From Beijerinckiaceae bacterium (GTDB lineage: Bacteria > Pseudomonadota > Alphaproteobacteria > Rhizobiales > Beijerinckiaceae): DNA of 64,000 nucleotides. The notes beneath the pieces were generated by a model. That model had not been told where the DNA came from, did not search any database, and was given only the letters and a program-made list of their open reading frames with translations. The translations under genes were made by a program, and so were the position numbers. The stretch spans positions 87,325 to 151,324 of the forward strand of contig CANJNI010000006.1 in NCBI GenBank assembly GCA_947475995.1. Reading direction: 5' to 3'. Each line of letters opens with the position of its first letter. The stretch's first letter is position 1. Shown here in pieces: positions 1,973 to 49,245 of the stretch.

Positions 1973-2845
1973 ATGTCGGACCAGGCGGCGGCGCCGAAGA
2001 AATATCGCTTTCTTCTCATTCAGGCGTTCCGCCTGCCGGAAGACTCGCCCTATCTGCATCGCAAGCTGACGGGTCCGAAAGAAACGACCCTCATGAACTT
2101 CAACACCCTCGCGCCCATTCTGTCCGATGTGGATTGGGATGTGCATCCGGGCGCACTCACCACTTATGGCAACTGGCCTGTCGAGACGCGTGAGGAGTTC
2201 GCCTATTCGGCGGCGGCGCGTCTCCCGCTCGTGCGGGAGGCTTGCGAGAGCGGCAAATACAACGGGATCGTCCTGCTGGGCGGCGGCGAGCCGGGATTTC
2301 AGGAGTCGCGCGAAATCGGACGCCGCTACCGGATTCCGGTCACCTCCTGCGCATTCTCGCAGATGCATGTGGCGACGATGCTGGGCAACAAGTTCAGTAT
2401 CATCGACCTCTCCGAAAATCATAATATGTACTACTACAATCTTGTCGTTCAGCACCGTATGACAGATCGCTGCGCGTCGATCCGCTCTCTCAACTTTCCG
2501 CATGAGCGTCCCGGTTGCGACCCGGTGCGGCCATTGCATGTCGAGCGCGACAAGGCGCGGCGCGGCGAACGATCCGAGGCGGTGGAAGAGGCGGTGGCAG
2601 CTGCGGTCGCGGCCATAGAGGAGGACGGCGCCGAGGTGATCACGTTCGGATGCTCGGGCTCGTTCTGGCTTCAGCCCTTTGTTGAAAAGCGTCTGCACGA
2701 AATGGGGTGGGAAGTGCCGGTGCTGGAAGGCTATCGTTGCGCGATCACGCTCGCCAAGATGATGGTCGATCTCGGTGTCGACGCCAGTGGTCTGATGTTC
2801 CCGGGCGAACGCCCGAAGCAGTGGCGTCGCAAAAAGGTTTTTTGA
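1973..2845 (+). CDS. hydantoin racemase-like protein (Asp/Glu racemase superfamily)
   Basis: 290 aa from ATG 1973; the ORF track starts earlier, but those codons overlap the upstream SDR, and GGAG sits ahead of this ATG. Two cysteines are placed as in HyuE-type cofactor-independent racemases: one in PVTSCAFSQM and one in ITFGCSGSFW, each in a small-residue loop. The family uses two Cys as acid and base to invert an alpha carbon. LGGGEPGFQESREIGRR resembles the stretch before the first Cys in HyuE. It is last in the 149-2845 operon and acts in the cytosol. The C-terminus is basic (PKQWRRKKVF). Racemase versus isomerase activity cannot be decided. Confidence 0.65.
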   Translation: MSDQAAAPKKYRFLLIQAFRLPEDSPYLHRKLTGPKETTLMNFNTLAPILSDVDWDVHPGALTTYGNWPVETREEFAYSAAARLPLVREACESGKYNGIVLLGGGEPGFQESREIGRRYRIPVTSCAFSQMHVATMLGNKFSIIDLSENHNMYYYNLVVQHRMTDRCASIRSLNFPHERPGCDPVRPLHVERDKARRGERSEAVEEAVAAAVAAIEEDGAEVITFGCSGSFWLQPFVEKRLHEMGWEVPVLEGYRCAITLAKMMVDLGVDASGLMFPGERPKQWRRKKVF

Positions 2846-7750: not shown

Positions 7751-7822
7751 GGGCCTGCAGCGTGCCCGGGGGCTGATTATCGACTAGAGTTGCCAGGTTT
7801 CTGTGATTCGAAAGCGAACGAC

Positions 7823-22537: not shown

Positions 22538-23718
22538 TAGACCACTCCAGCCGCTTTCAGGCGTTCTGTTTCATCTGCGCTGTAGCCGAGTTCGGCCAGC
22601 ACTTCATTCGTATGTTCGCCGAGTTCGGGCAGGCGCTTTTCGAGAGCGGGACCATCGGCATCGGCCACGAAGCCCGCGTTCATCAGACGCATGGCCTTGC
22701 CATCGGCGGTGGCGCTGTCCTGCAACATGCGTCGCTCGCGCAGGGATGGCATGGACAGAAGTTCGCCGGATGTGCGGACTTTTGCGGCGGGCGCGCCGGC
22801 CTCCATCAAGGCCCTTTCGAGATCGCTCGCCTTCAGCGGCGCGATGCGGCGCGACAGTTCGGCGCGCAATTCATCCTTGTTGGCGAGACGCGACGCGGGC
22901 TTTTCATAGCGCGGGTCCTTGATCAGTTCGGGAGCGCCGAGCACGCCGCACAGGGCTTCCCAATGGTTCTGGAAATTGCCGCTGAGCCACAGCCATCCAT
23001 CGGTGGTGCGGAAAGGTCCGACCGTGGGGCGATCCTGCACGATCGGTTGCGTCGCCTTGATGCGGTCGCCGCTGATCATTTGGCGCACGAGGCCGGGCCC
23101 CATGAGGACGAGCGTTGCGTCCAGCATGGCGACGTCGAGATGCTGCCCCTCGCCGGTGCGTTCGCGTCGGATGAGCGCCTGGAGGATCGCCGAATAAGCC
23201 ACGAAGCCACTGAAACAATCGATGCTGAAGCCGCGACCCTGCGAGGGAATGTCGTTGTCTTCGCCGCTCCACGCCATCCCGGTCATGGCCTGAATGGTAT
23301 GGTCATAGGCGGGCCATCTGGCCATCTCGCCGCCCTGTCCGAAGCCGGTGATGCTGCAGGTGATGAGGCGCGGATTCAGCGCGCGCAGATCCTCATGGCC
23401 GAGGCCTATTTCGGTGAGCGCGCCGGGGCGCTGGTTCTCCACCATGACGTCGGCCGTCATCGCGAGTGCGCGCACGATGGACTGGCCTTCGGGGCTCTTG
23501 AGATTGACGGTGATGGAGCGCTTGCCGGCATTCACCGCCGCAAAGGCAGATCCGACATTCCAGCCCGGCTCCTTGATGAATTCGCGGAAATCATCGCCGA
23601 TGCCGGGACGCTCGACCTTGACGACGTCCGCGCCCAGAAGGCCCAGATGGTAGGTGCAGAAAGGCCCGGCGAGCGCATGGGTCAGATCGAGAATTCGCAG
23701 GCCTTCGAGCGCCTTCAT
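22537..23718 (-). CDS. class III CoA-transferase (CaiB/BaiF family)
   Basis: 393 aa, normal for the family. It opens MKALEGLRILDLTHALAGPFCTYHLG with GADVVKVERPGIGDDFR, and carries the catalytic-Asp region RLITCSITGFGQGG...YDHTIQAMTG, plus SRRIAPLKASDLERALMEAGAPAAKV near the end. It moves CoA between acids, here presumably activating the imported acid for the downstream dehydratase subunits, with which it is translationally coupled. This gene order parallels HadA-HadBC of clostridial 2-hydroxyacid pathways but with no activator gene. The ABC binding protein is 58 bp upstream. Confidence 0.88.
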   Translation of the reverse strand: MKALEGLRILDLTHALAGPFCTYHLGLLGADVVKVERPGIGDDFREFIKEPGWNVGSAFAAVNAGKRSITVNLKSPEGQSIVRALAMTADVMVENQRPGALTEIGLGHEDLRALNPRLITCSITGFGQGGEMARWPAYDHTIQAMTGMAWSGEDNDIPSQGRGFSIDCFSGFVAYSAILQALIRRERTGEGQHLDVAMLDATLVLMGPGLVRQMISGDRIKATQPIVQDRPTVGPFRTTDGWLWLSGNFQNHWEALCGVLGAPELIKDPRYEKPASRLANKDELRAELSRRIAPLKASDLERALMEAGAPAAKVRTSGELLSMPSLRERRMLQDSATADGKAMRLMNAGFVADADGPALEKRLPELGEHTNEVLAELGYSADETERLKAAGVV

Positions 23719-23776
23719 GTCTTTTTAATTCCCCGAATGGTGTGCGCCGCCGCTGATGCGCGGCGGCGCTTCTTGA

Positions 23777-24796
23777 TCAGTTGGCGCCGAGCAATTGCAC
23801 GAGGCCGGGGATTTTTTCCTTGATGGTCCGGAAGTCGGGCGTCGCCATCTGGGGGAGCGGCAGCGTGCCGGGCACACCGTTGATCGGCGAGAAACCGTCC
23901 TTGTTAAGCACGGCCTGCCCGTCGACGCTCAGCGTAAAGGCGGCGAGCAACCTGGCGATATTCGGATGCGGGGCCTTCTGCATGATCATCATGCTGGTGT
24001 CGGAAGAGATCGTCGGCTGCGGGAAAATCTCGCCGATCGGCGCGCCCTTATCGAGCAGACCCACGACGACCTGATGGATGCCGGGCGCGTAGATTGCCTT
24101 TGCGCCGGCCGCAATCTGCTGAATGCCCGGAACCGCGCTCGGCGAGAGCGTCGCGTTCTGGCCGAGCGCCTTGATGAAGCCCTCCCCATAGGTGTCGCGC
24201 ATCAGCACATGCCAGAGGGCAGGCGAGCCGCCGACGCGCGGGTCGATGGTCAGCACGCGGCCCTTCCACTTCGGGTCGATCAGGTCCTGCCACGTCTTCG
24301 GCGGGTCCTTGATCTGGTCCTTGTTGTAGATCAGCGAATAGGGAATGTGCGAAACGATCACCGAGAACGGCGTCTTCACATGCGCATAGGGAGCCAGACC
24401 CGGCACGATATCGATGGAGGCGAACATGCCCTTGGCGTGCATCTGCTCCTGCAGCAACTTATCGGTGTCCAGGACGACATCCGCGACCGGGCTGCCGCTT
24501 TCGTGCTCGGAAAGAAGACGTTGGCCGAGCGCGCCGGAGATGAGGCGCGTCACCTCCAGTTCGATGCCGTACTTTTCCTTGAACTTGGCCACGAAGGCCT
24601 GAATGATCGCCGGATCGGTGACGGCATAGAGCGAGCCCTTGCCTTCCTTCTTGGCGGCCTCGATCAACGCCGCGTCGACCTGCTGGGCGGAGGCGATGGA
24701 GGGCAGCATGGCGGCGGCCATTGCCGCACCCGCAACCTGCTTGATGAATTTCCGGCGCGTCGTCCGGCCTTTTAGCATTCTGGTCATCTGTTTCAT
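23777..24796 (-). CDS. ABC-type extracellular solute-binding protein family 1 (FbpA/iron-type), Tat-exported
   Basis: 339 aa. The N-terminus holds TTRRKFIKQVAGAAMAAAMLPSIASAQQ, a twin-arginine signal. The mature protein has the FbpA-like order: LIEAAKKEGKGSLYAVTDPAIIQAFVAKF, VADVVLDTD, YSLIYNKDQIKDPPKTWQDLIDPKWKGR and LSVDGQAVLNKDGFSPI. This subfamily binds ferric iron, but also organic acids, phosphonates and thiamine; the tyrosine pair typical of iron binders is not seen, so an organic ligand is more likely. AGGAAGGGG precedes ATG 24796. It lies between the permease (25 bp upstream) and the CoA-transferase. Confidence 0.85.
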   Translation of the reverse strand: MKQMTRMLKGRTTRRKFIKQVAGAAMAAAMLPSIASAQQVDAALIEAAKKEGKGSLYAVTDPAIIQAFVAKFKEKYGIELEVTRLISGALGQRLLSEHESGSPVADVVLDTDKLLQEQMHAKGMFASIDIVPGLAPYAHVKTPFSVIVSHIPYSLIYNKDQIKDPPKTWQDLIDPKWKGRVLTIDPRVGGSPALWHVLMRDTYGEGFIKALGQNATLSPSAVPGIQQIAAGAKAIYAPGIHQVVVGLLDKGAPIGEIFPQPTISSDTSMMIMQKAPHPNIARLLAAFTLSVDGQAVLNKDGFSPINGVPGTLPLPQMATPDFRTIKEKIPGLVQLLGAN

Positions 24797-24821
24797 CCCC
24801 TTCCTGTTATGGCGGTCCCGA

Positions 24822-26519
24822 TCAGCTCATTCTTGCAGAGTATCGCGAAAAGAAAAGCATGATGGCGACGCCGACGGACGTTACCGCCGTCACCACGATC
24901 GACATGGCGGCAAGCTGCGGAAACGATCCGAAAACCCACAGTTCCGTCATGACGCGGCCGATGACCGGATTGCGGGCTCCGCCCAGCAGGCTCGACGCAG
25001 TGACTTCGCCTGCCGTGTGAATGAAAACGATGATCCAGCCCGCCACCAGCCCCGGAACCGAAAGCGGCAGAAGCACGCGCCAGAATGTGCGGCCGGGTCC
25101 TGCGCCGGCGATCCGGGAGGCTTCGGACAGGTCGATCCCGATGCCGGACGCAGCCGCCGCCGCCGCACGCGCCGCGAAGGGCAGGGCCATCGCCAGATAA
25201 GCGAGGAAGAGGATCGTCAATGTGCCGTAGAACTGGAAAGGTTTGGGGGTGAAGGTGATCAGGAACGCGATGCCGATCACCGTATGCGGCAAGGTTGCCG
25301 GAAGGCTCATCACGATATCGGCCCAGCGGCTGCTCGCGCCTTTCTGCTGGCGGGCCTGCAAGGTCACCAGCGCGGCGATCAGCACCGCCACCGTCGCGAC
25401 GGCCGCTCCCAGTGAAAAGCTGGTGACGAAGGCGCGGCTTGTGGGTCCGTTTTCGAACAGCACGAAGCGATAATTGGCGAGACTGAGCTGGTTCCAGCGC
25501 ACGATCGGCGTCCAGAAGGATTGCAGCGAGACCAGAATGAGCCCCAGCACCGGCAGGACGGACGTCGAGACCAGATAGGCGATTGCGAGAATTTTCGCCG
25601 GGATGCGCAAACGTCCCAGTCTTATGCGACCGGCGCGCGCGCCGCGTCCGCCTGTCACCGCATTGCGGTCTCCCGGCGCCAGATAGCGCTGCGCCAGAAG
25701 CAGCGATTGCACGACCGCCACCATGGCGGCGCTCAGCAGAAGTCCGGCTGCGGTCTGCGGCGGGAATTGCTCGAAGAGCCGATAGATATAGACCGAAATC
25801 ACATCCATGCGGGCCGCCGTGCCGAGCACGATCGGCACCGAGAACAGCCCGATGCCGGCGATGATCGCCAGCAGCGACGCCGACGCAATGGCCGGGCGTA
25901 TGGCGGGCAGCGTTACTCGCAACATGGTGCGAACAGGAGGAGCGCCGCTGACGCGCGAGGCTTCCTCCAGAGCGGAATCGAGTCCGCGCAGGGCCGCCGA
26001 AACGACGAGATAGACGTAGGGCGTCAGATAGAGGCCCGTGATGGCCATGAGGCCGGCGGGCGTATAGATGTTCAGCGGGCCGGTGAAGGACTCGACGCCC
26101 ACCAGCCCCAGCAGCCAGCGCAGAAAGCTGTTGCCGAATCCGACATTCGGATCGAGCAGGATCGCCCAGCCGATGACTCCCGCGATGGGCGGCACGATCA
26201 TCGGCGCGAGCGGCAGCAGTTCGCCGGCAGCTCCCAGATCGCCGTCCGTGCGCTCATTGATGAAGGCCAGCAGGGAGCCGATGATGGTCGCGATAAAGGC
26301 TCCGCCCATCACGATGATGGCGGTGTTGAACATCACGCGGCCTAGCGCCCCGGAGGCAAAGGCCGCAGTGAGTTCCTTCAGGCCTGCGGGCGCTTCGCCG
26401 ATCGTGCGCCAGATGGTCACCCCGAACGGAAAGATCAGAAAAACCGCGACGAGCGCCACAACGCCCATCACGAGGGGCGCGAAAAGCGGCTTGCGCCGGA
26501 CTGGGCGGGAGGCGCTCAT
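24822..26519 (-). CDS. ABC transporter permease, fused double-domain (FbpB/PotBC-type)
   Basis: 565 aa from ATG 26519, which overlaps the ATPase stop (TAATG). Two permease halves of about 6 TM each are joined, as in FbpB. Each half has an EAA loop: LDSALEEASRVSGAPPVRTMLRVTLPAIRPAI near residue 200 and GIDLSEASRIAGAGPGRTFWRVLLPLSVPGL near 480. Both EAA loops would contact the ATPase. With the ATPase and binding protein it makes a complete importer in the inner membrane. The ORF as given by the track runs upstream without homology. Confidence 0.92.
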   Translation of the reverse strand: MSASRPVRRKPLFAPLVMGVVALVAVFLIFPFGVTIWRTIGEAPAGLKELTAAFASGALGRVMFNTAIIVMGGAFIATIIGSLLAFINERTDGDLGAAGELLPLAPMIVPPIAGVIGWAILLDPNVGFGNSFLRWLLGLVGVESFTGPLNIYTPAGLMAITGLYLTPYVYLVVSAALRGLDSALEEASRVSGAPPVRTMLRVTLPAIRPAIASASLLAIIAGIGLFSVPIVLGTAARMDVISVYIYRLFEQFPPQTAAGLLLSAAMVAVVQSLLLAQRYLAPGDRNAVTGGRGARAGRIRLGRLRIPAKILAIAYLVSTSVLPVLGLILVSLQSFWTPIVRWNQLSLANYRFVLFENGPTSRAFVTSFSLGAAVATVAVLIAALVTLQARQQKGASSRWADIVMSLPATLPHTVIGIAFLITFTPKPFQFYGTLTILFLAYLAMALPFAARAAAAAASGIGIDLSEASRIAGAGPGRTFWRVLLPLSVPGLVAGWIIVFIHTAGEVTASSLLGGARNPVIGRVMTELWVFGSFPQLAAMSIVVTAVTSVGVAIMLFFSRYSARMS

Positions 26520-27673
26520 TATCCTTGCGCCAGCGGAAAGATCATGGTGCGCGCCTTGGGGAAGGACACCGTCAGATTCTCCCCGTGCGGATGACGTTCG
26601 CCGCCGATCGCAATGGCGACTATGAGCTTGTCGGCAACGCGCAGCACATGTTCGAAGGTGGAGCCCTGAAACAGGGATCTTTCGAGAACTGCGCTCACCG
26701 TATTGTGCGTCGCGGGCGCGGCCCCGTCGACAGCAAGGCCGCATTGCTCTGGCCGGAACATGACGGCGACCTTCTGGCCGATGGTCGCAACACCGGCACC
26801 GGCCGAGCCCGCAATGACTCCGGCGGGCGTCGAGACGACACATGTCCTGCCGTCAAGCGCGGTGACTTCGCCCTGCATTTCGTTGGCGCTGCCGATGAAG
26901 TCCGCCACGTAGCGGGAGGCGGGCGCATCATAGATCTCTTCGGGCGTGCCGATCTGGGCGATCTTTCCCACTTCCATCACGGCGATCCGGTCTGCCAGGG
27001 CGAGAGCCTCGCTCTGGTCATGCGTGACGTAAAGACTCGAAAAGCCGATTTCCTGCTGGAGCGCGACGAGTTCGATCCGCAGGCGCGCGCGCACCTTCGC
27101 GTCGAGATTGGAGAGTGGTTCATCGAACAGCACGAGGCCGCCGGTGGAGACGAGGGCGCGGGCGAGCGCCACGCGCTGCTGCTGGCCGCCGGACAATTGT
27201 CCCGGGAAGGATTGGGACAGATGGGCAAGCCCGACGCGGTCCAGCGCCTGCGTGACGCGCGGGCGCAGCTCAGCATCCTTCACGCGTTGATTTCGCAAGG
27301 GATAGGCGACGTTCTCAAAAACGCTCATATGCGGCCAGAGCGCGTAGGACTGGAACACCATGCCCAGATTGCGCTCTTCCGGCGGAAACCAGATGTCCCG
27401 GCCGGCGGAGGACACGATCTGCCCTTCTATCTGGATATCGCCGCCATCGGGCTGTTCCAGTCCGGCGATGGAGCGCAACAGCGTTGTCTTGCCACAACCT
27501 GAAGGCCCGAGCAGCACGACGAACTCGCCGGGGTGAATATCGATGGACACGCTGTCGAGCGCCGTGTGTTCACCGGCGCGCGTGCGATAACGCTTGGTCA
27601 GATTCTGCACGGAGACGCGCGGCGTCGTCGACGCTGCGCTCTGGCCCGGTTTGGCCGCGTTCTGCTCGCTCAT
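26519..27673 (-). CDS. ABC transporter ATP-binding protein (FbpC/PotA-type with TOBE domain)
   Basis: 384 aa from ATG 27673, preceded by GAGAGGG; TTG 27712 is a weaker start. Motifs: Walker A LLGPSGCGKTTLL, Q-loop VFQSYALWPHM, signature LSGGQQQRVALARAL, Walker B LVLFDEPLSNLDAKVR, switch His VTHDQSEALALADR, and a C-terminal TOBE-like region (VAVMFRPEQCG). It powers the importer and is the first gene of the minus-strand operon running to at least 20070. The organisation ATPase-permease-binding protein-CoA transferase-dehydratases indicates a dedicated uptake-and-activation route. Confidence 0.93.
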   Translation of the reverse strand: MSEQNAAKPGQSAASTTPRVSVQNLTKRYRTRAGEHTALDSVSIDIHPGEFVVLLGPSGCGKTTLLRSIAGLEQPDGGDIQIEGQIVSSAGRDIWFPPEERNLGMVFQSYALWPHMSVFENVAYPLRNQRVKDAELRPRVTQALDRVGLAHLSQSFPGQLSGGQQQRVALARALVSTGGLVLFDEPLSNLDAKVRARLRIELVALQQEIGFSSLYVTHDQSEALALADRIAVMEVGKIAQIGTPEEIYDAPASRYVADFIGSANEMQGEVTALDGRTCVVSTPAGVIAGSAGAGVATIGQKVAVMFRPEQCGLAVDGAAPATHNTVSAVLERSLFQGSTFEHVLRVADKLIVAIAIGGERHPHGENLTVSFPKARTMIFPLAQG

Positions 27674-38475: not shown

Positions 38476-39507
38476 ATGGCGATGGGGCAAAAAAGTCTGT
38501 CGGTTGCGGCATTGGCGATCGGCGCAACTGCGCTGGTCTTCTCGCTGCCTGCCGTGGCGCAAGTCTACAAAGGCAAACAAATACGCATGATCATCGCCAG
38601 CGGCGCTGGCGGCGGTTATGACGCTTACGCCCGCATCCTGCAGCGCTATCTTGAAAAACATATCGACGGCAATCCGACCATCGTGAACCAGAACATGCCC
38701 GGCGCATCCGGCATGCTGGCGATGAACTGGGCCTTCAATGCGGCTCCCAAGGATGGCACGGTCATTCTGGCGACCTATAATGCGCTGCTGGCCGAACCGC
38801 TCTACGGCAATCCTTCGGTGCAATATGATCCGCTGAAGTTCGAGCTGATCGGCAGTTTCTCGAAGCAGCAGAACATCTGCGTCACGTGGAATACCAGCCC
38901 CATCAAGTCAGTCCTTCAGGCGAAGGATCGCGAGGTGATTGTTTCGTCCACGGGCGCGACGGGCAATTCGGCCACGATGCCGAAGATTCTCAACACCGTG
39001 CTGGGTACGAAATTCAAGGTTGTGATGGGCTACGGCACCACCGAAGCGCGGCTCGCGGTCGAGAAGGGCGAGGTCGAGGGCATTTGCGGACTTTCATGGT
39101 CCACCCTGAAAGCCTCAAATCCCGATTGGGTGCAGAACAAGCGCATCAATATTCTCGTGCAGACAGGCGCGAAGGCGCAGGCCGATCTGCCTGACGTGCC
39201 GGTTCTGCTGGATCTGGTGAATGACCCGGAAAACAAGGCGATCATCAAGCTGCTGGGCTTCCCGGAAGACATGGGACGACCGTTTGTGATGCCGCCCGGC
39301 ACGCCCAAAGAGATGGTGGCGGCGGTGCGTCGGGGTTTCGACGCCGCTCTCAAGGACCCGCTGCTCAAGCAGGAAGCCGAGAAGCAACTTCTGGAAGTCG
39401 ATCCGGTCACGGGCGCGGAGATGGAGCAGATCCTGAAGGAGGCATACAGCCAGCCGAAGGATCTGGTGAAGAAGGCCTCGCAGTTCGTGACCAGCGAGGG
39501 CCGCTAG
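38476..39507 (+). CDS. tripartite tricarboxylate transporter (Bug/TctC) family binding protein
   Basis: 343 aa. Signal MAMGQKSLSVAALAIGATALVFSLPAVAQ, then the Bug pattern: KGKQIRMIIASGAGGGYDAYARILQRYL, NPTIVNQNMPGASG, and RPFVMPPGTPKEMVAAVRRGFDAALKDP. These periplasmic proteins bind mono-, di- or tricarboxylates for TctAB carriers or act as sensors. No tctA or tctB gene is in the window, so it is an orphan. It neighbours a racemase/decarboxylase-type gene on the opposite strand, supporting a carboxylic-acid ligand. Confidence 0.88.
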   Translation: MAMGQKSLSVAALAIGATALVFSLPAVAQVYKGKQIRMIIASGAGGGYDAYARILQRYLEKHIDGNPTIVNQNMPGASGMLAMNWAFNAAPKDGTVILATYNALLAEPLYGNPSVQYDPLKFELIGSFSKQQNICVTWNTSPIKSVLQAKDREVIVSSTGATGNSATMPKILNTVLGTKFKVVMGYGTTEARLAVEKGEVEGICGLSWSTLKASNPDWVQNKRINILVQTGAKAQADLPDVPVLLDLVNDPENKAIIKLLGFPEDMGRPFVMPPGTPKEMVAAVRRGFDAALKDPLLKQEAEKQLLEVDPVTGAEMEQILKEAYSQPKDLVKKASQFVTSEGR

Positions 39508-39563: not shown

Positions 39564-40307
39564 TTAGTGTTCGCTCAGCAGGCGTCCATAGCCCTTGATC
39601 TTGTCGTTGACGCCGGTCTTGCGCATGGACTCCCAGGCGATGGCCTGTAGCGACGCCATGCAGCTTACCTTCAATTCCTGCTCGATTGCCTCGATAGCGT
39701 CGATGACGCGCCAGTGCGGGCAGGCGAAGTTGAACGTGTCGATTTCAGGACGTTCCTTTTTCAGCGCGCGGGCCCATTGCAGCGCGCTGTCGACCGGGAT
39801 CTTGCCGAGTTCCTTCAGGTTGGACATGCCAGCGTAGCAACCAGCCGGTTCGAGTCCGAAAAACTCCTTCAGGTACTTTTCGTGGCGCGGATGCTGGTCC
39901 GGCATGAATGGATGAATGGTGCCGACCTTGCGGCTCCCAAGCGCCTTGTAGGCATTGCGTTGCGCGCTGCTGCTGCTGGAAACCGGCACGCCGATCTCGT
40001 CTTCAAGCTGCTTCAGATAATCATCCAGCTTGTCGGCGCCGCGCGACAGGTTGACCGGTACGCCACCGAGCAACACGAGGTCTGCGCCGGATTGCGCGAA
40101 GGCGTGCGCTGCCTCGTGGCTGGCGTCGTTGCATTTCTTCACGTCCTCCGGGCTTCGATCGCCAAGCGGCAGCGTGATCATCATCAGCGTCACGCCATCC
40201 GGGACGATCTTGTACCAGTCGATGGGGAAGACTTCGGTCGTGACGGCTGCGACCGTGTAGCCGATGCGGGCGCGATGCCCGTAGGTTCCGGAGGGGCTTG
40301 GCATCAT
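39564..40307 (-). CDS. arylmalonate decarboxylase / maleate isomerase-like protein
   Basis: 247 aa. Aligning by eye with AMDase, the C-terminal catalytic Cys is present (FNFACPHWRVIDAIEAIE) while the N-terminal site holds Gly (LVLLGGVPVNLSRG), the same arrangement as in arylmalonate decarboxylase (Gly/Cys) rather than the two-Cys racemases and maleate isomerases. Thus a cofactor-free decarboxylation of a malonate-type acid is possible. The middle VPVSSSSSAQRNAYKAL corresponds to the phosphate-like carboxylate-binding loop. It precedes the TonB-like and hydrolase genes; operon membership is unclear. Confidence 0.7.
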   Translation of the reverse strand: MMPSPSGTYGHRARIGYTVAAVTTEVFPIDWYKIVPDGVTLMMITLPLGDRSPEDVKKCNDASHEAAHAFAQSGADLVLLGGVPVNLSRGADKLDDYLKQLEDEIGVPVSSSSSAQRNAYKALGSRKVGTIHPFMPDQHPRHEKYLKEFFGLEPAGCYAGMSNLKELGKIPVDSALQWARALKKERPEIDTFNFACPHWRVIDAIEAIEQELKVSCMASLQAIAWESMRKTGVNDKIKGYGRLLSEH

Positions 40308-40322
40308 GTGTCCTTTCGAAGG

Positions 40323-40700
40323 TCAGGCCTGTCGGCCCCGTTGACTGAAGAGAATCGTGAAGGGGCGTCCGGCAAGCGCCCCGCCGAGCGCAGGCGTGAT
40401 CGAAACCGGCACGCAGGTCTGAAGCGACTGAAGAACGGAAGCTACGAATTCGGCATTCAGCTTCTCGTCCTTGCCGAGGGTCGAATGCGTGATGGCGGGT
40501 TTGCCCAGAAGCCCTCCGTCGCGTTTCAGGCTCATCCGCACGGTCAGTTGCATCGCTTCAGTACCGGCGGGCGGCCGCCAGCATTTCGTTACGGCGGCGA
40601 ACATGTCTTTCATTGTGTTGGCCGGGTTCGCCTGCGCGTGGACCTTTGTTGATGACAGGGCGCATGCCAGCAAGGCGAATGCGCCGACAACACGCTTCAC
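40323..40700 (-). CDS. small periplasmic protein with TonB-C-like fold
   Basis: 125 aa from GTG 40700, which overlaps the TGA of the hydrolase upstream as GTGA, strong evidence for this start. The signal VKRVVGAFALLACALSSTKVHAQA is followed by MFAAVTKCWRPPAGTEAMQLTVRMSLKRDGGL and ASVLQSLQTCVPVSI, like the beta-alpha TonB C-terminal/energy-transducer domains found in short secreted proteins. Two cysteines (CW and CVP) could form a disulfide. Function unknown; translation is coupled to an alpha/beta hydrolase. Confidence 0.6.
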   Translation of the reverse strand: MKRVVGAFALLACALSSTKVHAQANPANTMKDMFAAVTKCWRPPAGTEAMQLTVRMSLKRDGGLLGKPAITHSTLGKDEKLNAEFVASVLQSLQTCVPVSITPALGGALAGRPFTILFSQRGRQA

Positions 40701-41518
40701 CAAAGCCTGTTCTCCGTGAAGAATCTCGCGACCCGCGCATTGAAGGCGGCAGGCTGCTCGATGAAGCAGCAATGACCCGCATCGGGGAGGATCACATGTT
40801 CCGATTGGGGAACGAGGCCCGCCGTGCGTGCGCCGCCCTTGAGTGCGTTGTCGTGTTCGCCGTTCACGATCAGCGTCGGAGAGCCATAGGACGACAGGCG
40901 CGGCGTCAGGTCGGACTCGCCGACAGCGTGAAAGACGCTGACAATGCTTTCGGGATCGAGGGCCGCGCCGCGCTCCACGAAGCCTCCCAACAGGTACTGG
41001 CCCGTCGGGGTGTCGGCCCATTTCGCCGTTACGCCGTGGCGCAGGTGTCCCAGATGATAGGCGGGCAGACGGCCTGCGGCATGTTCGGCCCGGTAGGCCG
41101 CAATGCGGTGGTCGAACTGCGCCTGCAATCCGCTATTGCCGCCGACGAGCACCGCAGCCCGGTATAGTTCCGGATGGTCGCAGGCCAGCATCAGGGCGAT
41201 CTTCGATCCGACGCTGCACCCCATGACGACCGCGCCGCAATCGAAGCCCGCATCATGCAGCACGCCGGTGACGTCATGGCCCATCTCTTCCAGCGAGAAA
41301 CGGTCACGGGGTTTGCCGGAGGCGCCCCAGCCGCGCAGGTCCATGGCGAGCGTGGTGAACCGGCTTGAAAAGCGCTCGACCTGATAGAGCCACACATGGT
41401 GGTCGAACGGCATGGCGTGGATCAGCACCAGCGGGGGGCCTCGCCCGACCTTCTCGTAATAGATGTCGACGCCGTTGCGGTGACTGACTGGCAAAATGTC
41501 CTCCCGATCAGACGCCAT
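40697..41518 (-). CDS. alpha/beta hydrolase
   Basis: 273 aa from ATG 41518. Oxyanion strand PLVLIHAMPFDHHVW, nucleophile elbow GCSVGS (G-x-S-x-G, Ser nucleophile), acid in LIVNGEHDNALKGG and catalytic His in DAGHCCFIEQP. This is the 3-oxoadipate enol-lactonase/haloperoxidase-like group; lactone or ester hydrolysis in the cytosol is likely. In a region with PobA and dienelactone hydrolase, an enol-lactonase (PcaD-like) activity is plausible but unproved. Divergent from the maleate-isomerase operon (84 bp between). Confidence 0.85.
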   Translation of the reverse strand: MASDREDILPVSHRNGVDIYYEKVGRGPPLVLIHAMPFDHHVWLYQVERFSSRFTTLAMDLRGWGASGKPRDRFSLEEMGHDVTGVLHDAGFDCGAVVMGCSVGSKIALMLACDHPELYRAAVLVGGNSGLQAQFDHRIAAYRAEHAAGRLPAYHLGHLRHGVTAKWADTPTGQYLLGGFVERGAALDPESIVSVFHAVGESDLTPRLSSYGSPTLIVNGEHDNALKGGARTAGLVPQSEHVILPDAGHCCFIEQPAAFNARVARFFTENRLW

Positions 41519-41602
41519 ACTAGACAGCGCCGCCACGCCCGCAAGACTGGCGCGCCGCCCCGGCCTTCGCTACGATGCGGGAAACGAATTCCGGGAGACC
41601 AC

Positions 41603-42355
41603 ATGGCCTACAAGACCATTGAGACGCGGGCGCGCATCGGCTTCATCATTCCGTCTTCCAACCGCATGGTTGAGCCGCAGGCGGCACGCTACATGCCTGA
41701 AGGCGTGCAGCCGCATTTCACCCGGATCGGGATGACGAACCGCCACAAGGCGCCGCTGGAGAAGCTGCTGCCGCGCATTCTGGACGCGGCTGAGTTGCTG
41801 GGCGACTCAAAGTGCAACGTCACCGTCCTGCAATGCACCGGCACCTCGATGTCGGGCGGCGTGGATATGGAGGCGCACGTCATCCGCGAGATCGAGCGCG
41901 TGACCGGCAAGCCGGCGCTGAGCGCGGCGTCGTCGCTGACGGCGGCGTTCCGGACGCTGAATGCGCGCAAGCTCGTTTTCATTTCGGAGAACAAGCAGCC
42001 GGATCACGACAAGAAAAAGGATTTCGTTGTCGAGGCCGGATACGAGATCGTTGCCGACAAGGCGGTGGGGCTTTCGGGCACGGATGAATATTGCATCATG
42101 CCGCCGGAGCTTTGGTACGACACGGCGATCTCATTGCGTGACGAATCTGCCGACGCCTATTTCATTTCCTGCGCCAACATTCGCTCGATCGACGCCATCG
42201 AGGCGCTGGAGAAGGAACTCGGCAAGCCGGTCGTAACCAGCAATCAGGCGGCATTCTGGTGTTCGCTGCGCATGGCGGGCATCAAGGATCAGGTGCCGGG
42301 GCTGGGCAGACTGATGCAATACGATCTGCCAAAAGCGGCTGTGGCGGCGGAATAA
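41603..42355 (+). CDS. maleate cis-trans isomerase-like protein (two active-site Cys)
   Basis: 250 aa from ATG 41603 (GGGAGACC upstream). Both Asp/Glu-racemase-superfamily cysteines are present: VLQCTGTSMSGG (N-terminal) and YFISCANIRSIDAIEALE (C-terminal), as in maleate isomerase and Asp racemase. IGFIIPSSNRMVEPQ at the N-terminus is the typical maleate-isomerase opening. It would isomerise a cis-dicarboxylate in the cytosol without cofactor. First gene of a plus-strand unit with a BKACE (32 bp downstream) and an FAH family hydrolase, a natural route for cleaving a substituted dicarboxylate. Confidence 0.82.
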   Translation: MAYKTIETRARIGFIIPSSNRMVEPQAARYMPEGVQPHFTRIGMTNRHKAPLEKLLPRILDAAELLGDSKCNVTVLQCTGTSMSGGVDMEAHVIREIERVTGKPALSAASSLTAAFRTLNARKLVFISENKQPDHDKKKDFVVEAGYEIVADKAVGLSGTDEYCIMPPELWYDTAISLRDESADAYFISCANIRSIDAIEALEKELGKPVVTSNQAAFWCSLRMAGIKDQVPGLGRLMQYDLPKAAVAAE

Positions 42356-42387
42356 AAAACCCAGCAAGCGCCAGGGAGGGCGAACAA

Positions 42388-43254
42388 TTGGAGAAGCTGA
42401 TCATTTATGCGGCCGTAGGGTATCCGCGGAAGACCGAGAACCCGCATTTTCCGGCTGTGCCGCAGACATGGGAAGGGCTGGTGGACAGCGCTGTGCGAGC
42501 CGCGGAGGCAGGAGCCAGCATCGTGCATTTCCACGGGCCGCACGACGACAAGCATCGCATCATTCCGGAAGGCTGGGGCAAGCTGGTCGAGGAAATCCGC
42601 AAGCGCAGTGATGTGCTGATTGACTTCGGTCAAGCCGGCGCGCCGCTCGATCAGCGCAAGCCGCTTCTGGAACTGGGCGCGAACAAGCCCGACTTCATGG
42701 CTGTTTCGCTGACCAATCACGACTATCGCCGACACAGCCCGGAGCGCGGGGCGTTCGATGTCTATTACCAGCACCCGCGCGACGAACTGGAAGAATATGC
42801 GCGTTGCCTCAAGGCAGCAGGCGTGAAGCCGGCCTGGGAGATCTGGCATCTGGGCGGCATGTGGAATTTTGAATATCTGGAAAAGCTGGGGCTCGTCGAG
42901 AAGCCTTACTGGCTGAACATTTTCTTCGGGACGCCCGGCGGTGTCTGGTCGCCCCCGACCGTCGAGGAAATCAGTCACCGCATCGCCAATCTGCCGGCTG
43001 ATGCGCCCTTCATGCTCGCCCCGCGCGGCACGGCTGGACCCATGGGCCAGACGCGCATGTTGACCTTCGGGATCATCAAGGGCGGTCACGTTCGGCTCGG
43101 GACGCAGGACATGGCCTGGTATACGGACGGCGTTCCGGCGGAAAGTAACGCCCAGATCGTGGGTCGCATCGCCCGCATCTCGCGAGAGCTTGGCCGCGAA
43201 GTCGCCACGCCGGACGATGCGCGCCGCATTCTCGGCCTGCCGCCGCGCAAGTAA
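42388..43254 (+). CDS. beta-keto acid cleavage enzyme (BKACE, DUF849)
   Basis: 288 aa from TTG 42388: AGGGAGGG ends 7 bases before it and no in-frame ATG follows until late, so this TTG start is well supported. Family marks: IIYAAVGYPRKTENP, the Zn-binding H-x-H in ASIVHFHGPHDD, WEIWHLGGMWNFEYL and the end GHVRLGTQD...AESNAQIVGRIARI. BKACE enzymes condense a beta-keto acid with acetyl-CoA and split off acetoacetate. Operon partners are a maleate-isomerase-like and an FAH-like protein. Confidence 0.85.
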   Translation: MEKLIIYAAVGYPRKTENPHFPAVPQTWEGLVDSAVRAAEAGASIVHFHGPHDDKHRIIPEGWGKLVEEIRKRSDVLIDFGQAGAPLDQRKPLLELGANKPDFMAVSLTNHDYRRHSPERGAFDVYYQHPRDELEEYARCLKAAGVKPAWEIWHLGGMWNFEYLEKLGLVEKPYWLNIFFGTPGGVWSPPTVEEISHRIANLPADAPFMLAPRGTAGPMGQTRMLTFGIIKGGHVRLGTQDMAWYTDGVPAESNAQIVGRIARISRELGREVATPDDARRILGLPPRK

Positions 43255-43265
43255 CGGAGAGGGCG

Positions 43266-44180
43266 ATGAAGATTCTCCGTTTCAACGACGACCGCATCGG
43301 CATTCTGAAAAACGACAGCCATGTGGTCGATATCAGCGCCATCATCAGCCACCGCGAGGAGCGTGGCCCGCAACGCACGATGGAAGTGCTCATCGAGAAT
43401 TTCGATGATCTGCGTGGCGAGATCGACCGGATGGTGGCGGCAAGCGACGGTGTTCCGCTGGCGAGCGTGAAGCTGCTCGTTCCGCTGCCGCGTCCGTCCA
43501 AGGTTCTGGGCGCGTTCCTGAACTATCTGGATGCGCCGGACCGCAAGCTGGAGCTTCTGCCCAACGAGTTTTTCCACAAGGCGCCCGAGCTGCTGGGCCC
43601 CGAAGGCGACATTATTTTTCGCGATCTTGCTCCCGTGAAGGAATGCACGCCCGAGGCGGAGCTGGCTTTTGTGGTCGGCAAGCGCGCGAAGGATGTGTCC
43701 GAAGATGACGCCATGAGCCATGTGTTCGGCTATGTGCCGTTCTTCGATATTTCGGTGCGGGGCATCAAGCGGCGCAGCCTTGTCATTCCCAAGGGGCAGG
43801 ATACGCACGGCCCATGCGGCCCGTGGATCGTGACGCGCGACGAGATTCCAGACCCGCACAATCTCAACGTCAAATCATGGGTCGATGGGACATTGCGGCA
43901 GGACTACAACACCTGCGACATGGCGCACAAAATTCCCGAACAGATTTCGTGGCTGAGCAAGTTCATCCAGTTGCAGCCCGGCGACGTGATCGCGACCGGC
44001 ACGCACCATAAAGGTCTGGGGCCGTTGAATGTCGGCAACATTCTCGAAATCGAGATCGAGAAGATCGGCAAGGCGCGCTTCTACGTGAAGGGCGACATGC
44101 CCTACAAGGACACGAAGAAGAGCGGGACCAGCAAGAGTCCCGATCCGCTGCCGCCCGGCATGGTGATCACGCCGATCTGA
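43266..44180 (+). CDS. fumarylacetoacetate hydrolase (FAH) family protein
   Basis: 304 aa. Metal site E-x-E (CTPEAELAFVVGKRAKDV) with a third acidic residue in FGYVPFFDISVRG, then KGQDTHGPCGPWIVTRDEI and PGDVIATGTHHKGLGPLN, the standard FAH C-terminal landmarks. The motif F-F-D replaces the usual N-D. The family hydrolyses or decarboxylates 1,3-diketo or 2-oxo acids with Mg2+. An N-terminal extension of about 60 residues forms the usual small domain. GGAGAGGGCG precedes ATG 43266. Cytosolic; last gene of the isomerase-BKACE operon. Confidence 0.87.
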   Translation: MKILRFNDDRIGILKNDSHVVDISAIISHREERGPQRTMEVLIENFDDLRGEIDRMVAASDGVPLASVKLLVPLPRPSKVLGAFLNYLDAPDRKLELLPNEFFHKAPELLGPEGDIIFRDLAPVKECTPEAELAFVVGKRAKDVSEDDAMSHVFGYVPFFDISVRGIKRRSLVIPKGQDTHGPCGPWIVTRDEIPDPHNLNVKSWVDGTLRQDYNTCDMAHKIPEQISWLSKFIQLQPGDVIATGTHHKGLGPLNVGNILEIEIEKIGKARFYVKGDMPYKDTKKSGTSKSPDPLPPGMVITPI

Positions 44181-44195
44181 GATCGGCGCGAAGCA

Positions 44196-45140
44196 TTACA
44201 ACGTAATGAGCGCCTTCGGCTTTTCGCCGCGCACGAAAGCAGCGACGTTTTCTGCCGCGAAACCCGCGAGGCGCTCCGCGCTGCCGGCTGCCGAGACATG
44301 CGGGGTCAGCACGAGGTTCGGGGCTTTCCACAGCGGATGCTCGGGCGGCAAAGGTTCGGGGTCGGTCACGTCGAGACCCGCGCCGCCCAGATGTCCCGAA
44401 TTCAAAGCCTCTGTTAGCGCATTCGTGTCGATGATCGAACCGCGTGCGATATTGATCAGGATCGCGCCCTTCTGCATGCGGGCGATGCGAGCCGCATCGA
44501 ACATGCCCTTGGTCTGCGGCGTCAGCGGCGTCGAGATCATCACGATGTCGGAATGGCCGAGCACTGAATCGAGCTGATTGATCGTCAGTTTCTCATCCGC
44601 CAGTGGGCTGACGGGCCGTGTGCGCGAAATGCCGATGATGTGCGCGTCAAAGGCTTTCAGCCGTTTGGCCGCCTGCTGCCCGATGGCTCCGAAGCCCACG
44701 ATGGTGACGATCTTGCCTTCGAGGGTGAACATTTTGGTGTTGTAAGCGCCGTCCCATTTCGCCGAGGGAATGTTGGCCTGCGCATCGTGCAGCCGCCGTG
44801 ACAACGCGAGCATCATCGCAACCGCATGTTCGCCGACTGCGGGCGCAAGGCTGTCTCCGGCGCTCGAAACCGAGACGGTCGATTGCGGCTTGTCGAGCGC
44901 CATGCGGTCGTAGCCGATGGTGAGAAGCTGGATGAATTTCAGCTTCGTCGAGGCGCGAACCGCATTTGCCACGGCCGGTGTGTAATTGAACACGGGCGCG
45001 ACCAGAACATCGGCGTCTGGCAGGGCTGCAATCGTTTCATCCGCGTTTTTCACGCTGGTGAATTCGATATTTGGAATTTTGGCGAAAGCCGCTTCGAGTG
45101 AGGCCCGCGAGATGGGCGCAGCCCACATGACGATGCGCAT
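44196..45140 (-). CDS. D-2-hydroxyacid dehydrogenase family protein
   Basis: 314 aa. The NAD-binding fold shows VGFGAIGQQAAKRL, then catalytic Arg in INIARGSIID, Glu in DVTDPEPLP and His in LTPHVSAAG, the complete dehydrogenase triad. It reduces 2-keto acids or oxidises (R)-2-hydroxyacids in the cytosol. A 122-base gap with a palindromic repeat separates it from the upstream enolase-family gene on the same strand, so co-transcription is uncertain. Its ATG 45140 is preceded by AGGAGAACAAG. Confidence 0.9.
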   Translation of the reverse strand: MRIVMWAAPISRASLEAAFAKIPNIEFTSVKNADETIAALPDADVLVAPVFNYTPAVANAVRASTKLKFIQLLTIGYDRMALDKPQSTVSVSSAGDSLAPAVGEHAVAMMLALSRRLHDAQANIPSAKWDGAYNTKMFTLEGKIVTIVGFGAIGQQAAKRLKAFDAHIIGISRTRPVSPLADEKLTINQLDSVLGHSDIVMISTPLTPQTKGMFDAARIARMQKGAILINIARGSIIDTNALTEALNSGHLGGAGLDVTDPEPLPPEHPLWKAPNLVLTPHVSAAGSAERLAGFAAENVAAFVRGEKPKALITL

Positions 45141-45229
45141 CTTGTTCTCCTGATGTCTTCAATTGCACGAATGCGATTGCGGGTGGCCCGCCGCCCGTTG
45201 AAGCAACCCATCTGTGCGCGCACGACTAT

Positions 45230-45259
45230 GGATTGCTTCGCTTCGCTCGCAATGATGGA
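45230..45259. repeat. short rhizobial-type palindromic (REP-like) repeat
   Basis: GGATTGCTTCGCTTCGCTCG followed by CAATGATGGA has an ATTGC...GCAAT stem around TTCG-rich loops. This closely resembles the abundant extragenic repeats of Bradyrhizobium and relatives that I know by sequence. It sits in the gap between the enolase-family and dehydrogenase genes. Confidence 0.6.
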
Positions 45260-45262
45260 ATG

Positions 45263-46429
45263 TCACTTGATCGGAATAACGTCCTGTTCACGGAATTCCA
45301 GTCCAAATCCGGGCGCATCCGAGGGTCGCACGACGCCGTTCACCGGCACATTCATGCCCGGATACTTGTTGGCTTCCGCGAGCGGCACGCCCGGATCGGA
45401 ATGCAGCCAGAACTCGGCAATCGAGGCCTCCGGCATTGCGATGGAGAAATGCTGGCCGAAGGGCGAACTGGCTCCCGAATGCGGGATCGTCTGAATGCCA
45501 GCCGCTTCGCCGATGGTGTAGATTTTCAAGATCTCCGTCATGCCGCCGCACCAACGGAAATCCGGTTGCAGAATATCCACACAACGGCGGTCGACCAGTT
45601 CGCGGAAGTTGAAGCGGCCGTGAAGATCCTCGCCGGTCGCGATGGGCACGGTGGGATTGGCTTTCTTCAACTGCGCCATGCCATCAAAGTCGTGCGGCAT
45701 CAGCGGTTCCTCGAACCAGCGCAGCCTGTAAGGCTTAAGCCGCTCCATGATCCGCGCCGCATATTCGACGTTGAAGGACATGACCGGATTGTACATGAGG
45801 TCAGCTTTGTCGCCGACGGTCTCGCGCGCTTTGGCGACCTTCTCCTCGATGCGGTTGATGCCGTCGAGGCCCTCGTCATAGTGAACCGGATTGCTGATCT
45901 TGAACTTGGTGAAACCCAGTTCCATCGTCCAGTCGAGATCGTCGCTCGTGCAATAGGGGGTGATTTCCTCGCGGCATGGTCCGCCGATGAGGCTGTAAAC
46001 CGGAACGCCGAGCAGCTTGCCCTTCAGATCCCACAGCGCAAGGTCGATGGCGCTGCGCGCGACCATCGCGAGGCCGGTTGCGCCGAAGCGCATCGAGGAG
46101 CGCCACATCAGGTCGTTCAGATATTCGATGGCGAAGCAGTCGCGGCCTGTCAGGAGCGGCGCGAAATGATCGCGGATCAGCGGCGTCACCAGATTGGCCC
46201 AGTTGCAAAGGCCGATGCCCCAGACGCCGTTTTCCGCCGTCACCTTCACCCATAATTCGGGGCCGACTTCGCCGGGAATATTGTGCAGGCTGCGTGGAAA
46301 TTCCGGATATTTGTTGATCGGAAAGGCGCGCTTGGCGGATTTGTTGTAGCTGGCGCGGCGCGGCGGAGTCTTCGGCTTGGGACGCGGGGCGACCGTGCAG
46401 GCCTCTATGGATTTGATCTTGATGGTCAT
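45263..46429 (-). CDS. enolase-superfamily acid-sugar dehydratase-like (RhmD/MR-MLE) protein
   Basis: 388 aa. Capping domain then barrel with FTKFKISNPV (K-x-K), RWFEEPLMPHDF, ATGEDLHGR, DILQPDFRWCGGMTE and QTIPHSGAS, matching L-rhamnonate-dehydratase-type enzymes (E, E, D and H in place). The first metal position, Asp in the common LxxDxWM-type block, is Asn here (DLMYNPVMSFN). Reactions of the family are dehydration or racemisation of hydroxy acids with Mg2+. It is preceded by two racemase-family genes on the same strand (11 bp gap) and followed by a hydroxyacid dehydrogenase. Confidence 0.8.
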   Translation of the reverse strand: MTIKIKSIEACTVAPRPKPKTPPRRASYNKSAKRAFPINKYPEFPRSLHNIPGEVGPELWVKVTAENGVWGIGLCNWANLVTPLIRDHFAPLLTGRDCFAIEYLNDLMWRSSMRFGATGLAMVARSAIDLALWDLKGKLLGVPVYSLIGGPCREEITPYCTSDDLDWTMELGFTKFKISNPVHYDEGLDGINRIEEKVAKARETVGDKADLMYNPVMSFNVEYAARIMERLKPYRLRWFEEPLMPHDFDGMAQLKKANPTVPIATGEDLHGRFNFRELVDRRCVDILQPDFRWCGGMTEILKIYTIGEAAGIQTIPHSGASSPFGQHFSIAMPEASIAEFWLHSDPGVPLAEANKYPGMNVPVNGVVRPSDAPGFGLEFREQDVIPIK

Positions 46430-46440
46430 CGTTCTTCCGT

Positions 46441-47178
46441 TCAGGCGGAGAGCAGCTTGCCGTGGCCCTGAATGGGCTCCCAGGCGTTCAGCATTTGCAG
46501 CATGTGGCGCACGCGGGCCGTCTGGTTGCAGATGACGGGCTTGCCGAATTCATCTTCGAGCTTGCGGCAAACGGGTTCCGCCAGCCAGGTGCCGCCGCCG
46601 ATGTAAAGCGCATCGGCTTCCGGATGATCGAGCAGCGCCTGCCGTCCGAGGTCCCACGCAAGCTGGATGTGATCGCCGGTCTTGATCTTCACGAATTCCG
46701 AGGGCTTCAGCGCCTTGTTGACGACGCCGCACAGTTCGACGCCTTCGCGGGCGAAGAACTGCCCGAGATTGCGGTTCATCTCGTCGGTCCATTTATTGGC
46801 CGCTACGATCTTCTTCACGCCGATCTGCGCGGTGGTCTTTACCACGGCGTTCACGGTGCTGGTCGCCGGCACGCCCGTGTGCTTGCCCATCAGGTCGACG
46901 AGCCGATCATGTCCGTCGAGCCCGAGCAGGATCGGCAATGGCACGCCGTTCTGGATCACCATGTCGACGCCGCGCTCCATGAGCTGATCGAGGTAGGACG
47001 TCATGGGGGCGAAGACGCGCTCCACGTCGGCGCTCGAAAACTCCTTCAGGCCGACTGGAATCATGATGAGCATGATTCCCGGTGGGGCGATGCGGTAGAA
47101 TTCGTAAGGCTCGTTGCCGATGACGCCAAGCGGCGTGAGGCAGCCGATCTTGAAGCGGGGCTGGCTTTCTTCGAACAT
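46441..47178 (-). CDS. Asp/Glu racemase-superfamily protein lacking both usual cysteines (copy 2)
   Basis: 245 aa. The fold is that of maleate isomerase/AMDase (IGCLTPLGVIGNEPYEFYRIAP, GKHTGVPATSTVNAV, DALYIGGGTWLAEPV). Aligned by eye with the 41603 protein, the N-terminal Cys site reads IQNGVPLPILLG (Gly) and the C-terminal Cys site reads IGGGTWLA (Gly), so no catalytic Cys is in place; Cys occurs elsewhere (KPVICNQTARV). It is a tandem paralogue of the 47194 protein (15 bp apart) and lies upstream of the enolase-family gene. Confidence 0.7.
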   Translation of the reverse strand: MFEESQPRFKIGCLTPLGVIGNEPYEFYRIAPPGIMLIMIPVGLKEFSSADVERVFAPMTSYLDQLMERGVDMVIQNGVPLPILLGLDGHDRLVDLMGKHTGVPATSTVNAVVKTTAQIGVKKIVAANKWTDEMNRNLGQFFAREGVELCGVVNKALKPSEFVKIKTGDHIQLAWDLGRQALLDHPEADALYIGGGTWLAEPVCRKLEDEFGKPVICNQTARVRHMLQMLNAWEPIQGHGKLLSA

Positions 47179-47193
47179 GTTGGGTCCTCGCTC

Positions 47194-47934
47194 TCAGGGC
47201 GTCGAGAAGATGCGGCCGAAGCCTTCGCGAGGCTTCCAGTCTTTCAGGATTTGCATGACATGGCGCACGCGCGCTGTCTCGTTGCAGATGACCGGCTTGC
47301 CGATGGCCTGTTCGAGCCGGTTCGCGACCGGTTCGCAGAGCCAGGAGCCGCCGCCGAGATAGACGCCGTCGCAATCGGGATGTTCGTCTGCTGCACGCTT
47401 GCCGAGTTCCCAGGCGAGCCGCATGTGCGTCTCGTCCTCGATCTTCATGAAGTCCTTCGGGGCGATAGACTTGTTGGCTATGCCGCAGACCGTCACGCCC
47501 TCGCGGGCGAAAAATTGCGACAGGCTGGCGTTCATCGCGTCGGTCCATTTGTTGGCGACGGCGATTTTTTTGATGCCTATTTCGGCGGCGGACTTCGCCA
47601 CTGCCAGTACGGTGCTGGTGGCCGGAAGGCCCGTGTATTTCGCCATGTGGGCAATCATCCGGTCATGCGCGTCGACACCGATCAGAATGGGCAGCGGCAC
47701 GCCATTCTGGATCACGATCTCGACGCCGCGCTGCATGAGCTGGTCGAGGTATCCATCGAGCGGCGCAAAGGCGCGCTCTACATCCGTGGCGGAAAATTCG
47801 GTCAGCCCGACCGGAATGATCACCGACATGCAGCCCTTCGGCCAGAGGCGGTAGAACTCATAGGCTCCGTTGTCGATGACGCCCAGCGGGGCGAGCGTGC
47901 CGATCTTGTGAGTCGGAACCTGATCGTCGAACAT
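47194..47934 (-). CDS. Asp/Glu racemase-superfamily protein lacking both usual cysteines (copy 1)
   Basis: 246 aa from ATG 47934, with GGAGG upstream; the long track ORF runs in from an unrelated frame. Highly similar to the next gene: IGTLAPLGVIDNGAYEFYRLWP, IVIQNGVPLPILIG, GLPATSTVLAV, GVYLGGGSWLCEPV, KPVICNETARVRHVM. Both loop positions that hold Cys in racemases or isomerases are Gly here. A different chemistry, or a binding role, is therefore likely. First gene of a minus-strand unit with copy 2 and the enolase-family gene, divergent from pobA. Confidence 0.7.
   Translation of the reverse strand: MFDDQVPTHKIGTLAPLGVIDNGAYEFYRLWPKGCMSVIIPVGLTEFSATDVERAFAPLDGYLDQLMQRGVEIVIQNGVPLPILIGVDAHDRMIAHMAKYTGLPATSTVLAVAKSAAEIGIKKIAVANKWTDAMNASLSQFFAREGVTVCGIANKSIAPKDFMKIEDETHMRLAWELGKRAADEHPDCDGVYLGGGSWLCEPVANRLEQAIGKPVICNETARVRHVMQILKDWKPREGFGRIFSTP

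Positions 47935-48033: not shown

Positions 48034-49245
<1,212 letters not shown>

Follow-up and report, generated by a model that had tools for sequence, protein, structure and literature searches.

Arylmalonate decarboxylase (AMDase; EC 4.1.1.76; PDB 3DG9 and 2VLB) is represented by the Pfam family PF17645 and the NCBIfam model NF052327. True AMDases carry Gly74 and Cys188, and a dioxyanion hole formed by Thr75, Ser76, Tyr126 and Gly189 (PMC4996985). AMDase genes beside tripartite-transporter (TTT) and MR/MLE genes have been published (PMC4996985). Maleate cis-trans isomerase (PDB 2XED and 4FQ7) shares the AMDase fold, and the hydantoin/allantoin racemases (PF01177; PDB 3QVJ) belong to the same superfamily. 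The characterised racemases use two cysteines, and a 2025 study described two cysteines as conserved across the superfamily and essential in the enzyme tested (PMC12661438). Here we analyzed four PF17645 genes, A to D, in a 64,000-nucleotide stretch of a Beijerinckiaceae genome (contig CANJNI010000006.1, positions 87,325 to 151,324), referred to as the window. Two of the encoded proteins, C and D, have neither cysteine by alignment, and they are maintained by selection.

Cysteine states of the four proteins

The four genes are as follows.

39564..40307, minus strand: A, PF17645 protein of 247 amino acids, Gly/Cys (LLGGVPVN / NFACPHWR), in a 'PHW' clade that is sister to a Gly/Ser clade (Pfam, alignment, tree, AF2 model)
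41603..42355, plus strand: B, PF17645 protein of 250 amino acids, Cys/Cys (LQCTGTS / ISCANIR), maleate-isomerase-like, with a PSSN motif (Pfam, alignment)
46441..47178, minus strand: C, PF17645 protein of 245 amino acids, Gly/Gly, without a catalytic Cys (Pfam, alignment, AF2 model)
47194..47934, minus strand: D, PF17645 protein of 246 amino acids, Gly/Gly, 60% identical to C (Pfam, alignment)

All are intact open reading frames, at the positions given in a first-pass annotation of the window. D is upstream of C in reading order, and 15 bases separate them. The PF17645 scores are 63.1 (A), 86.7 (B), 81.3 (C) and 78.8 bits (D), all above the curated Pfam gathering cut-off of 25.9 bits.

Cysteine states were read by alignment to Gly74 and Cys188 of AMDase. 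A is Gly/Cys, B is Cys/Cys, and both C and D are Gly/Gly. These agree with the first-pass calls of both cysteines in B, Gly plus the C-terminal Cys in A, and neither Cys in C and D. The first-pass annotation had also counted four states in four genes. The states do differ at the aligned sites, but they number three, one being common to C and D.

C and D align to AMDase around both cysteine sites without displacement. In this alignment no Cys was found in C within a few residues of either catalytic site. D has one at the position of AMDase residue 193, which is common to only 8 of the 34 members of the C/D clade. The alignment thus indicates that the cysteines of C and D are lost, not shifted by a few residues. 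Such a shift had been raised in the first-pass annotation as a counter-explanation, and it was rejected at both sites.

A to D are under purifying selection. Compared with their orthologues in genome G035, the dN/dS ratios are 0.071 for A, 0.076 for B, 0.052 for C and 0.081 for D. Those of the neighboring genes for PobA (0.053) and an MR/MLE enzyme (0.054) are similar.

A conserved cleft in C and D

The AF2 models of C (mean pLDDT 92.8) and A (pLDDT 87.1) predict the two-domain, pseudo-symmetric fold of the Asp/Glu racemase superfamily. Foldseek searches with C found 4IX1 (E 8e-17), AMDase (5e-16) and maleate isomerase (2e-13). A has the same structural neighbors, the best being 4IX1 and AMDase. 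The TM-scores to AMDase (3dg9) are 0.83-0.87 for C and 0.80-0.84 for A. The top match of both, 4IX1, is hypothetical protein OPAG_01669 of Rhodococcus opacus. Like C and D, it has a PF17645-type fold, Gly at both sites and a GxP motif. However, its identity is about 24%, the tree does not place it in the C/D clade and it is uncharacterised. A literature search of limited reach returned nothing on 4IX1 or on cysteine-less members of the superfamily.

The 34 members of the C/D clade were grouped by Gly/Gly together with Trp126, and the clade is recovered, with support 98, in a tree from which the two Cys columns were omitted. Gly is found at both catalytic Cys sites in every member. At the dioxyanion-hole positions, C and D have Val, Pro, Trp and Gly, leaving only Gly189. 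The AMDase mechanism as published cannot operate in C and D, because both cysteines and all dioxyanion-hole residues except Gly189 are gone.

Sequence conservation is concentrated on the cleft side of the fold. An alignment of 26 C/D homologues, 47-93% identical to C, contains 41 invariant columns. These are enriched past the C-terminal ends of the strands, on the cleft side (18 of 41, odds ratio 2.7, p = 0.006, a count that took in all loops there and not measured pocket distances). No enrichment was found in this alignment on the side opposite the cleft. The invariant residues in C include Pro16, Gly43-Phe47-Ser48, Gly78-Pro80-Leu81, Asn128-Lys129-Trp130, Pro159, Gly194-Gly195-Gly196-Trp198 and Asn218, together with His90 in a helix. 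They include the cleft motifs GxPL, NKW and GGGxW. This suggests that a conserved ligand site is probably still present in C and D.

Expansion in the genus and pairing with binding-protein genes

The source genome (G000) contains 13 PF17645 genes. Ten encode proteins that lack both cysteines, two are Cys/Cys and one is Gly/Cys. Counts range from 2 to 16 per genome among the 23 genus members searched. In a class-wide sample, genomes with any PF17645 match mostly have 1-3, and the maximum outside the genus is 9. The C/D clade occurs almost exclusively in the genus: of 224 alphaproteobacterial genera sampled, 1 has a match at E <= 1e-30. Single relatives are also present in a Rhizobium and a Chloroflexota metagenome-assembled genome, and Rhizobium sp. 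P32RR-XVIII has one unpaired C-like gene. A plasmid search found only distant relatives (identity of 30% or less), Roseomonas among them.

The PF17645 genes of the source genome are clustered. For 8 of the 13, the nearest other member is no more than 3 kb away, compared to a mean of 0.28 expected, and 8 clustered members were never reached in 200,000 trials of random placement. Gene arrangements were read over the window, the source-genome paralogues and genus relatives. The genes recur as pairs that enclose or adjoin a binding-protein gene. Two Gly/Gly genes flank a TctC-type solute-binding-protein gene in 7 regions, and a Gly/Gly and a Gly/Cys gene do so in 6. A Cys/Cys gene occurs with a Gly/Cys or Gly/Ser gene and TctC in 4 regions, the window included. 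In 3 regions, two Gly/Gly genes flank the gene for an ABC binding protein. Overall, 30 of 36 regions have a TctC-type gene no more than 4 kb from a PF17645 gene. Many of the 36 come from related genomes and were picked for multiple PF17645 genes (not for binding proteins), and hence they are not independent.

The source genome has 35 TctC-type binding proteins compared to 9 TctA membrane subunits. Most TctC genes may therefore be orphans, those next to PF17645 genes included, and either have a few transporters in common or function in some other way.

Two modules in the window

The genes around A to D are as follows.

38476..39507, plus strand: TctC-type solute-binding protein (TTT receptor), adjoining A (PF03401, 39.6 bits)
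40697..41536, minus strand: alpha/beta hydrolase, divergent from B; the same layout is found in G035 (L062) and G006 (L130)
42388..43254, plus strand: BKACE-family beta-keto acid cleavage enzyme, downstream of B; missing at that place in G035
43266..44180, plus strand: fumarylacetoacetate-hydrolase-family (FAH) enzyme; missing at that place in G035
44196..45140, minus strand: D-2-hydroxyacid dehydrogenase, the final gene of the D-C-MR/MLE block
45263..46429, minus strand: enolase-superfamily (MR/MLE) enzyme; the nearest NCBIfam model is L-rhamnonate dehydratase, below its cut-off
48076..49245, plus strand: 4-hydroxybenzoate 3-monooxygenase (PobA), divergent from D; also beside the pair in G034 and G035

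The locus consists of two adjoining paralogue-pair modules. One contains TctC, A and B, and the other contains D, C, the MR/MLE enzyme and the 2-hydroxyacid dehydrogenase. The gene order in G035 (L062) is that of the window: PobA, D, C, MR/MLE, dehydrogenase, B, alpha/beta hydrolase, a small gene, A and TctC. In G034 (L063), PobA, D, C, MR/MLE and dehydrogenase are followed by other genes, with no A or B. The two modules are therefore separable. The BKACE and FAH genes (42388-44180), located between B and the dehydrogenase in the window and missing in the syntenic G035 locus, mark an insertion or a loss.

Proposed functions of C and D

We favor, with a probability of roughly 0.55, the reading that the two paralogue-pair modules are part of an expansion across the genus that is linked to solute-binding-protein genes, and that C and D catalyze a reaction without Cys on an imported carboxylate. 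The linked TctC-type receptor would bind the carboxylate, which would then be imported and processed in the cytoplasm. The neighboring PobA, MR/MLE, 2-hydroxyacid dehydrogenase, BKACE and FAH enzymes point to a possible role in aromatic or hydroxy/keto-acid catabolism. B would most likely isomerize or epimerize its substrate through its two cysteines. A would most likely use its one Cys for a one-sided proton transfer on a substrate other than an arylmalonate. C and D would most likely catalyze in the same cleft without Cys acid/base chemistry. The invariant Asn128-Lys129-Trp130, His90 and Asn218 (C numbering) are candidate substrate-binding or catalytic residues.

Several points weigh against this reading. 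The joint loss of Cys74, Cys188, Thr75, Ser76 and Tyr126 in C and D also fits a non-catalytic protein. The cleft enrichment was counted over loops, and the 36 regions are related, as described above. The proposed link of the enzymes to the binding proteins comes from genomic context only, and the C/D pair in the window has no binding-protein gene within 3 kb. Pairing is not obligate, because several C-like genes stand alone (close C relatives L055, L057 and L060). For this reason, an obligate heterodimer was not adopted for the pairs.

In the first rival explanation, C, D and the remaining cysteine-less members have no enzymatic function. The AMDase-fold cleft would let them sense or retain the imported compound, as ligand-binding, regulatory or partner proteins. 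The loss of both acid/base cysteines and three of the four dioxyanion-hole residues is consistent with this, and many relatives adjoin solute-binding proteins. In OpaE, a member of the same superfamily, the C199S and double mutants retain at most 0.3% activity (PMC12661438). However, the 41 fully invariant columns over 26 homologues are enriched on the active-site side, D and C share a catabolic-type operon with genes for an MR/MLE enzyme and a dehydrogenase, and neither a DNA-binding nor any other extra domain is present. We regard a non-catalytic role of C and D as unlikely, but as a serious rival.

A second rival is that the catalytic Cys was relocated in the C/D clade, with Cys217 of C taking over. 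This residue corresponds to AMDase position 210, at a neighboring strand end. Of the 34 clade members, 32 have Cys there, whereas other cysteines vary, and in the AF2 model of C it ends the strand of residues 215-217 and is followed by a helix. However, two clade members have Thr or Asn at this position, and position 210 is not in the published set of AMDase catalytic and pocket residues (PMC4996985). Another Gly/Gly clade (APPFM) has His there in 9 of 9 members. Relocation to Cys217 is improbable.

The loss of both cysteines contrasts with the conservation of two cysteines reported for the superfamily. Most members in this lineage lack both, those tested are strongly selected, and they are found in defined genomic units with binding-protein genes. 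The linked binding proteins provide a route to the substrate through ligand screening. The sets of close paralogues with Cys/Cys, Gly/Cys, Gly/Ser and Gly/Gly states would allow a direct test, within a single scaffold, of how proton transfer disappears or gives way to other chemistry. Cofactor-free relatives whose active site differs may also be of use, given the biocatalytic interest in AMDases.

Separate clades of A, B and the C/D pair

The first-pass annotation proposed that the set is an evolutionary series of cofactor-free chemistries kept in one region, and a phylogeny was constructed from 74 representatives with the two Cys columns omitted. A belongs to a 7-row Gly/Cys and Gly/Ser clade (support 100). 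B is located among Cys/Cys proteins related to maleate isomerase (support 99). C and D are in the Gly/Gly clade (support 98), and the true AMDases are placed apart from all three. A, B and C/D are 14-26% identical to each other, compared to 60% between C and D, and nearer relatives of each are found in other genomes. C-type and D-type orthologues are distinct in 5 genomes, with 58-64% identity between the types and 70-93% within them.

That A to D diverged in place as one local series is therefore very improbable, given their separate supported clades, their closer relatives outside the window and the presence of D-C without adjacent A or B in G034. The different Cys states within 8.4 kb and the close relationship of C and D would fit such divergence, and mixed-state clusters do recur in the genus. 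The co-location of different active-site states thus has support beyond the window, but the local series does not stand, and a single local radiation was rejected by tree and synteny. Decay of C and D, or of all four, into duplicates whose catalytic residues were lost by drift has almost no likelihood, even though the lost residues are held essential in characterised relatives (PMC12661438), as the pseudogene possibility raised in the first-pass annotation is rejected by dN/dS ratios of 0.05-0.08 in all four, and the frames are full-length, with orthologues in several species and strong site conservation.

In the sister clade of A, Ser is located exactly at the position of AMDase Cys188 (SPHWP). 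Its members include L121 (about 7161-7904), L072 (7247-8185), L040, L031 and L038.

Comparison of A and B with characterised enzymes

A to D share the fold and Pfam family of AMDase, and TTT and MR/MLE genes are among the neighbors. A also has the Gly74 and Cys188 pattern, which is absent in B, C and D. However, all four score 76-88 bits with NF052327, below its cut-off of 225. Of 13 AMDase catalytic and pocket positions, A matches 3, and C and D each match 4, without Cys188. The dioxyanion-hole positions of A are Val, Pro, Phe and Pro, with none of the AMDase residues kept; those of B are Thr, Gly, Asn and Ala. On the published criteria, A was rejected as an arylmalonate decarboxylase. Its earlier assignment to the 'arylmalonate-decarboxylase type' had followed the Cys pattern alone.

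The best PDB match of the B clade is maleate isomerase (E 9e-32), with both cysteines and the PSSN motif aligned. The two catalytic cysteines and PSSN align in 2XEC and 4FQ7, and the second Cys is mutated in 2XED and 4FQ5. The B clade also has the PSSN...E motif. Unlike maleate isomerase, B has Asn in place of the active-site Tyr of VTPY, which is presumably catalytic. This Tyr is retained in the more distant clade members L132, L134 and L116. No nicotinate or maleamate partner genes were seen among the neighbors examined. The top NCBIfam match of B is EutA (TIGR02990), yet its 112.4 bits are far below the cut-off of 318.

PF01177 relatives and other binding-protein loci

A further gene of the superfamily is found near the start of the window.

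1973..2845, plus strand: E, PF01177 hydantoin/allantoin-racemase-like protein in the Gly/Cys state, with an NMT1-type binding-protein gene nearby (206-1195)

The first-pass annotation gave E two cysteines, which is incorrect. In comparison with the Klebsiella allantoin racemase, E has Gly at the first site (ACFGDPG to LGGGEPG) and retains only the second Cys. In the region 206-2845, E comes after the gene for the NMT1-type ABC binding protein and one for a short-chain dehydrogenase. This is another case of a binding-protein gene near a racemase-fold gene.

Beyond the PF17645 set, the source genome has 9 PF01177 genes; a tenth match overlaps a PF17645 gene. Of the eight that were aligned, seven lack both cysteines and the other is Gly/Cys. 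The cysteine-less proteins are Asn/Gly (L155, L158, L159 and L161) or Gly/Gly (L153, L154 and L157), unlike the two-Cys racemases of the same superfamily. Double loss of Cys has thus occurred in parallel to that in PF17645, and 17 of 21 classified proteins of the two families in this genome lack both catalytic cysteines. Cysteine-less PF01177 genes also pair with C/D-like genes. Six further loci have such a gene beside a C-like one, and one of these loci is on a Roseomonas plasmid (another order); Roseomonas sp. OT10 carries genes of this kind on plasmid pOT10-1. In a limited literature search, we did not find described a double Cys loss on this scale in two superfamily branches of one genus, together with repeated binding-protein pairs. 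Tentatively, the AMDase-like PF17645 and hydantoin-racemase-like PF01177 branches may each have radiated in this genus into selected families that lack both cysteines, often as binding-protein-linked pairs. They might then represent, on an old racemase scaffold, a new class of cysteine-independent, cofactor-free reactions or two-protein enzymes, a possibility that we consider doubtful.

Elsewhere in the window, the region 20070-27673 (minus strand) contains two genes for 2-hydroxyglutaryl-CoA-dehydratase D-components (PF06050), a family III CoA-transferase gene and a gene for an ABC-type solute-binding protein. Apparent permease and ATPase genes follow them. The region resembles a 2-hydroxyacyl-CoA dehydratase-like cluster that includes a dedicated uptake system.

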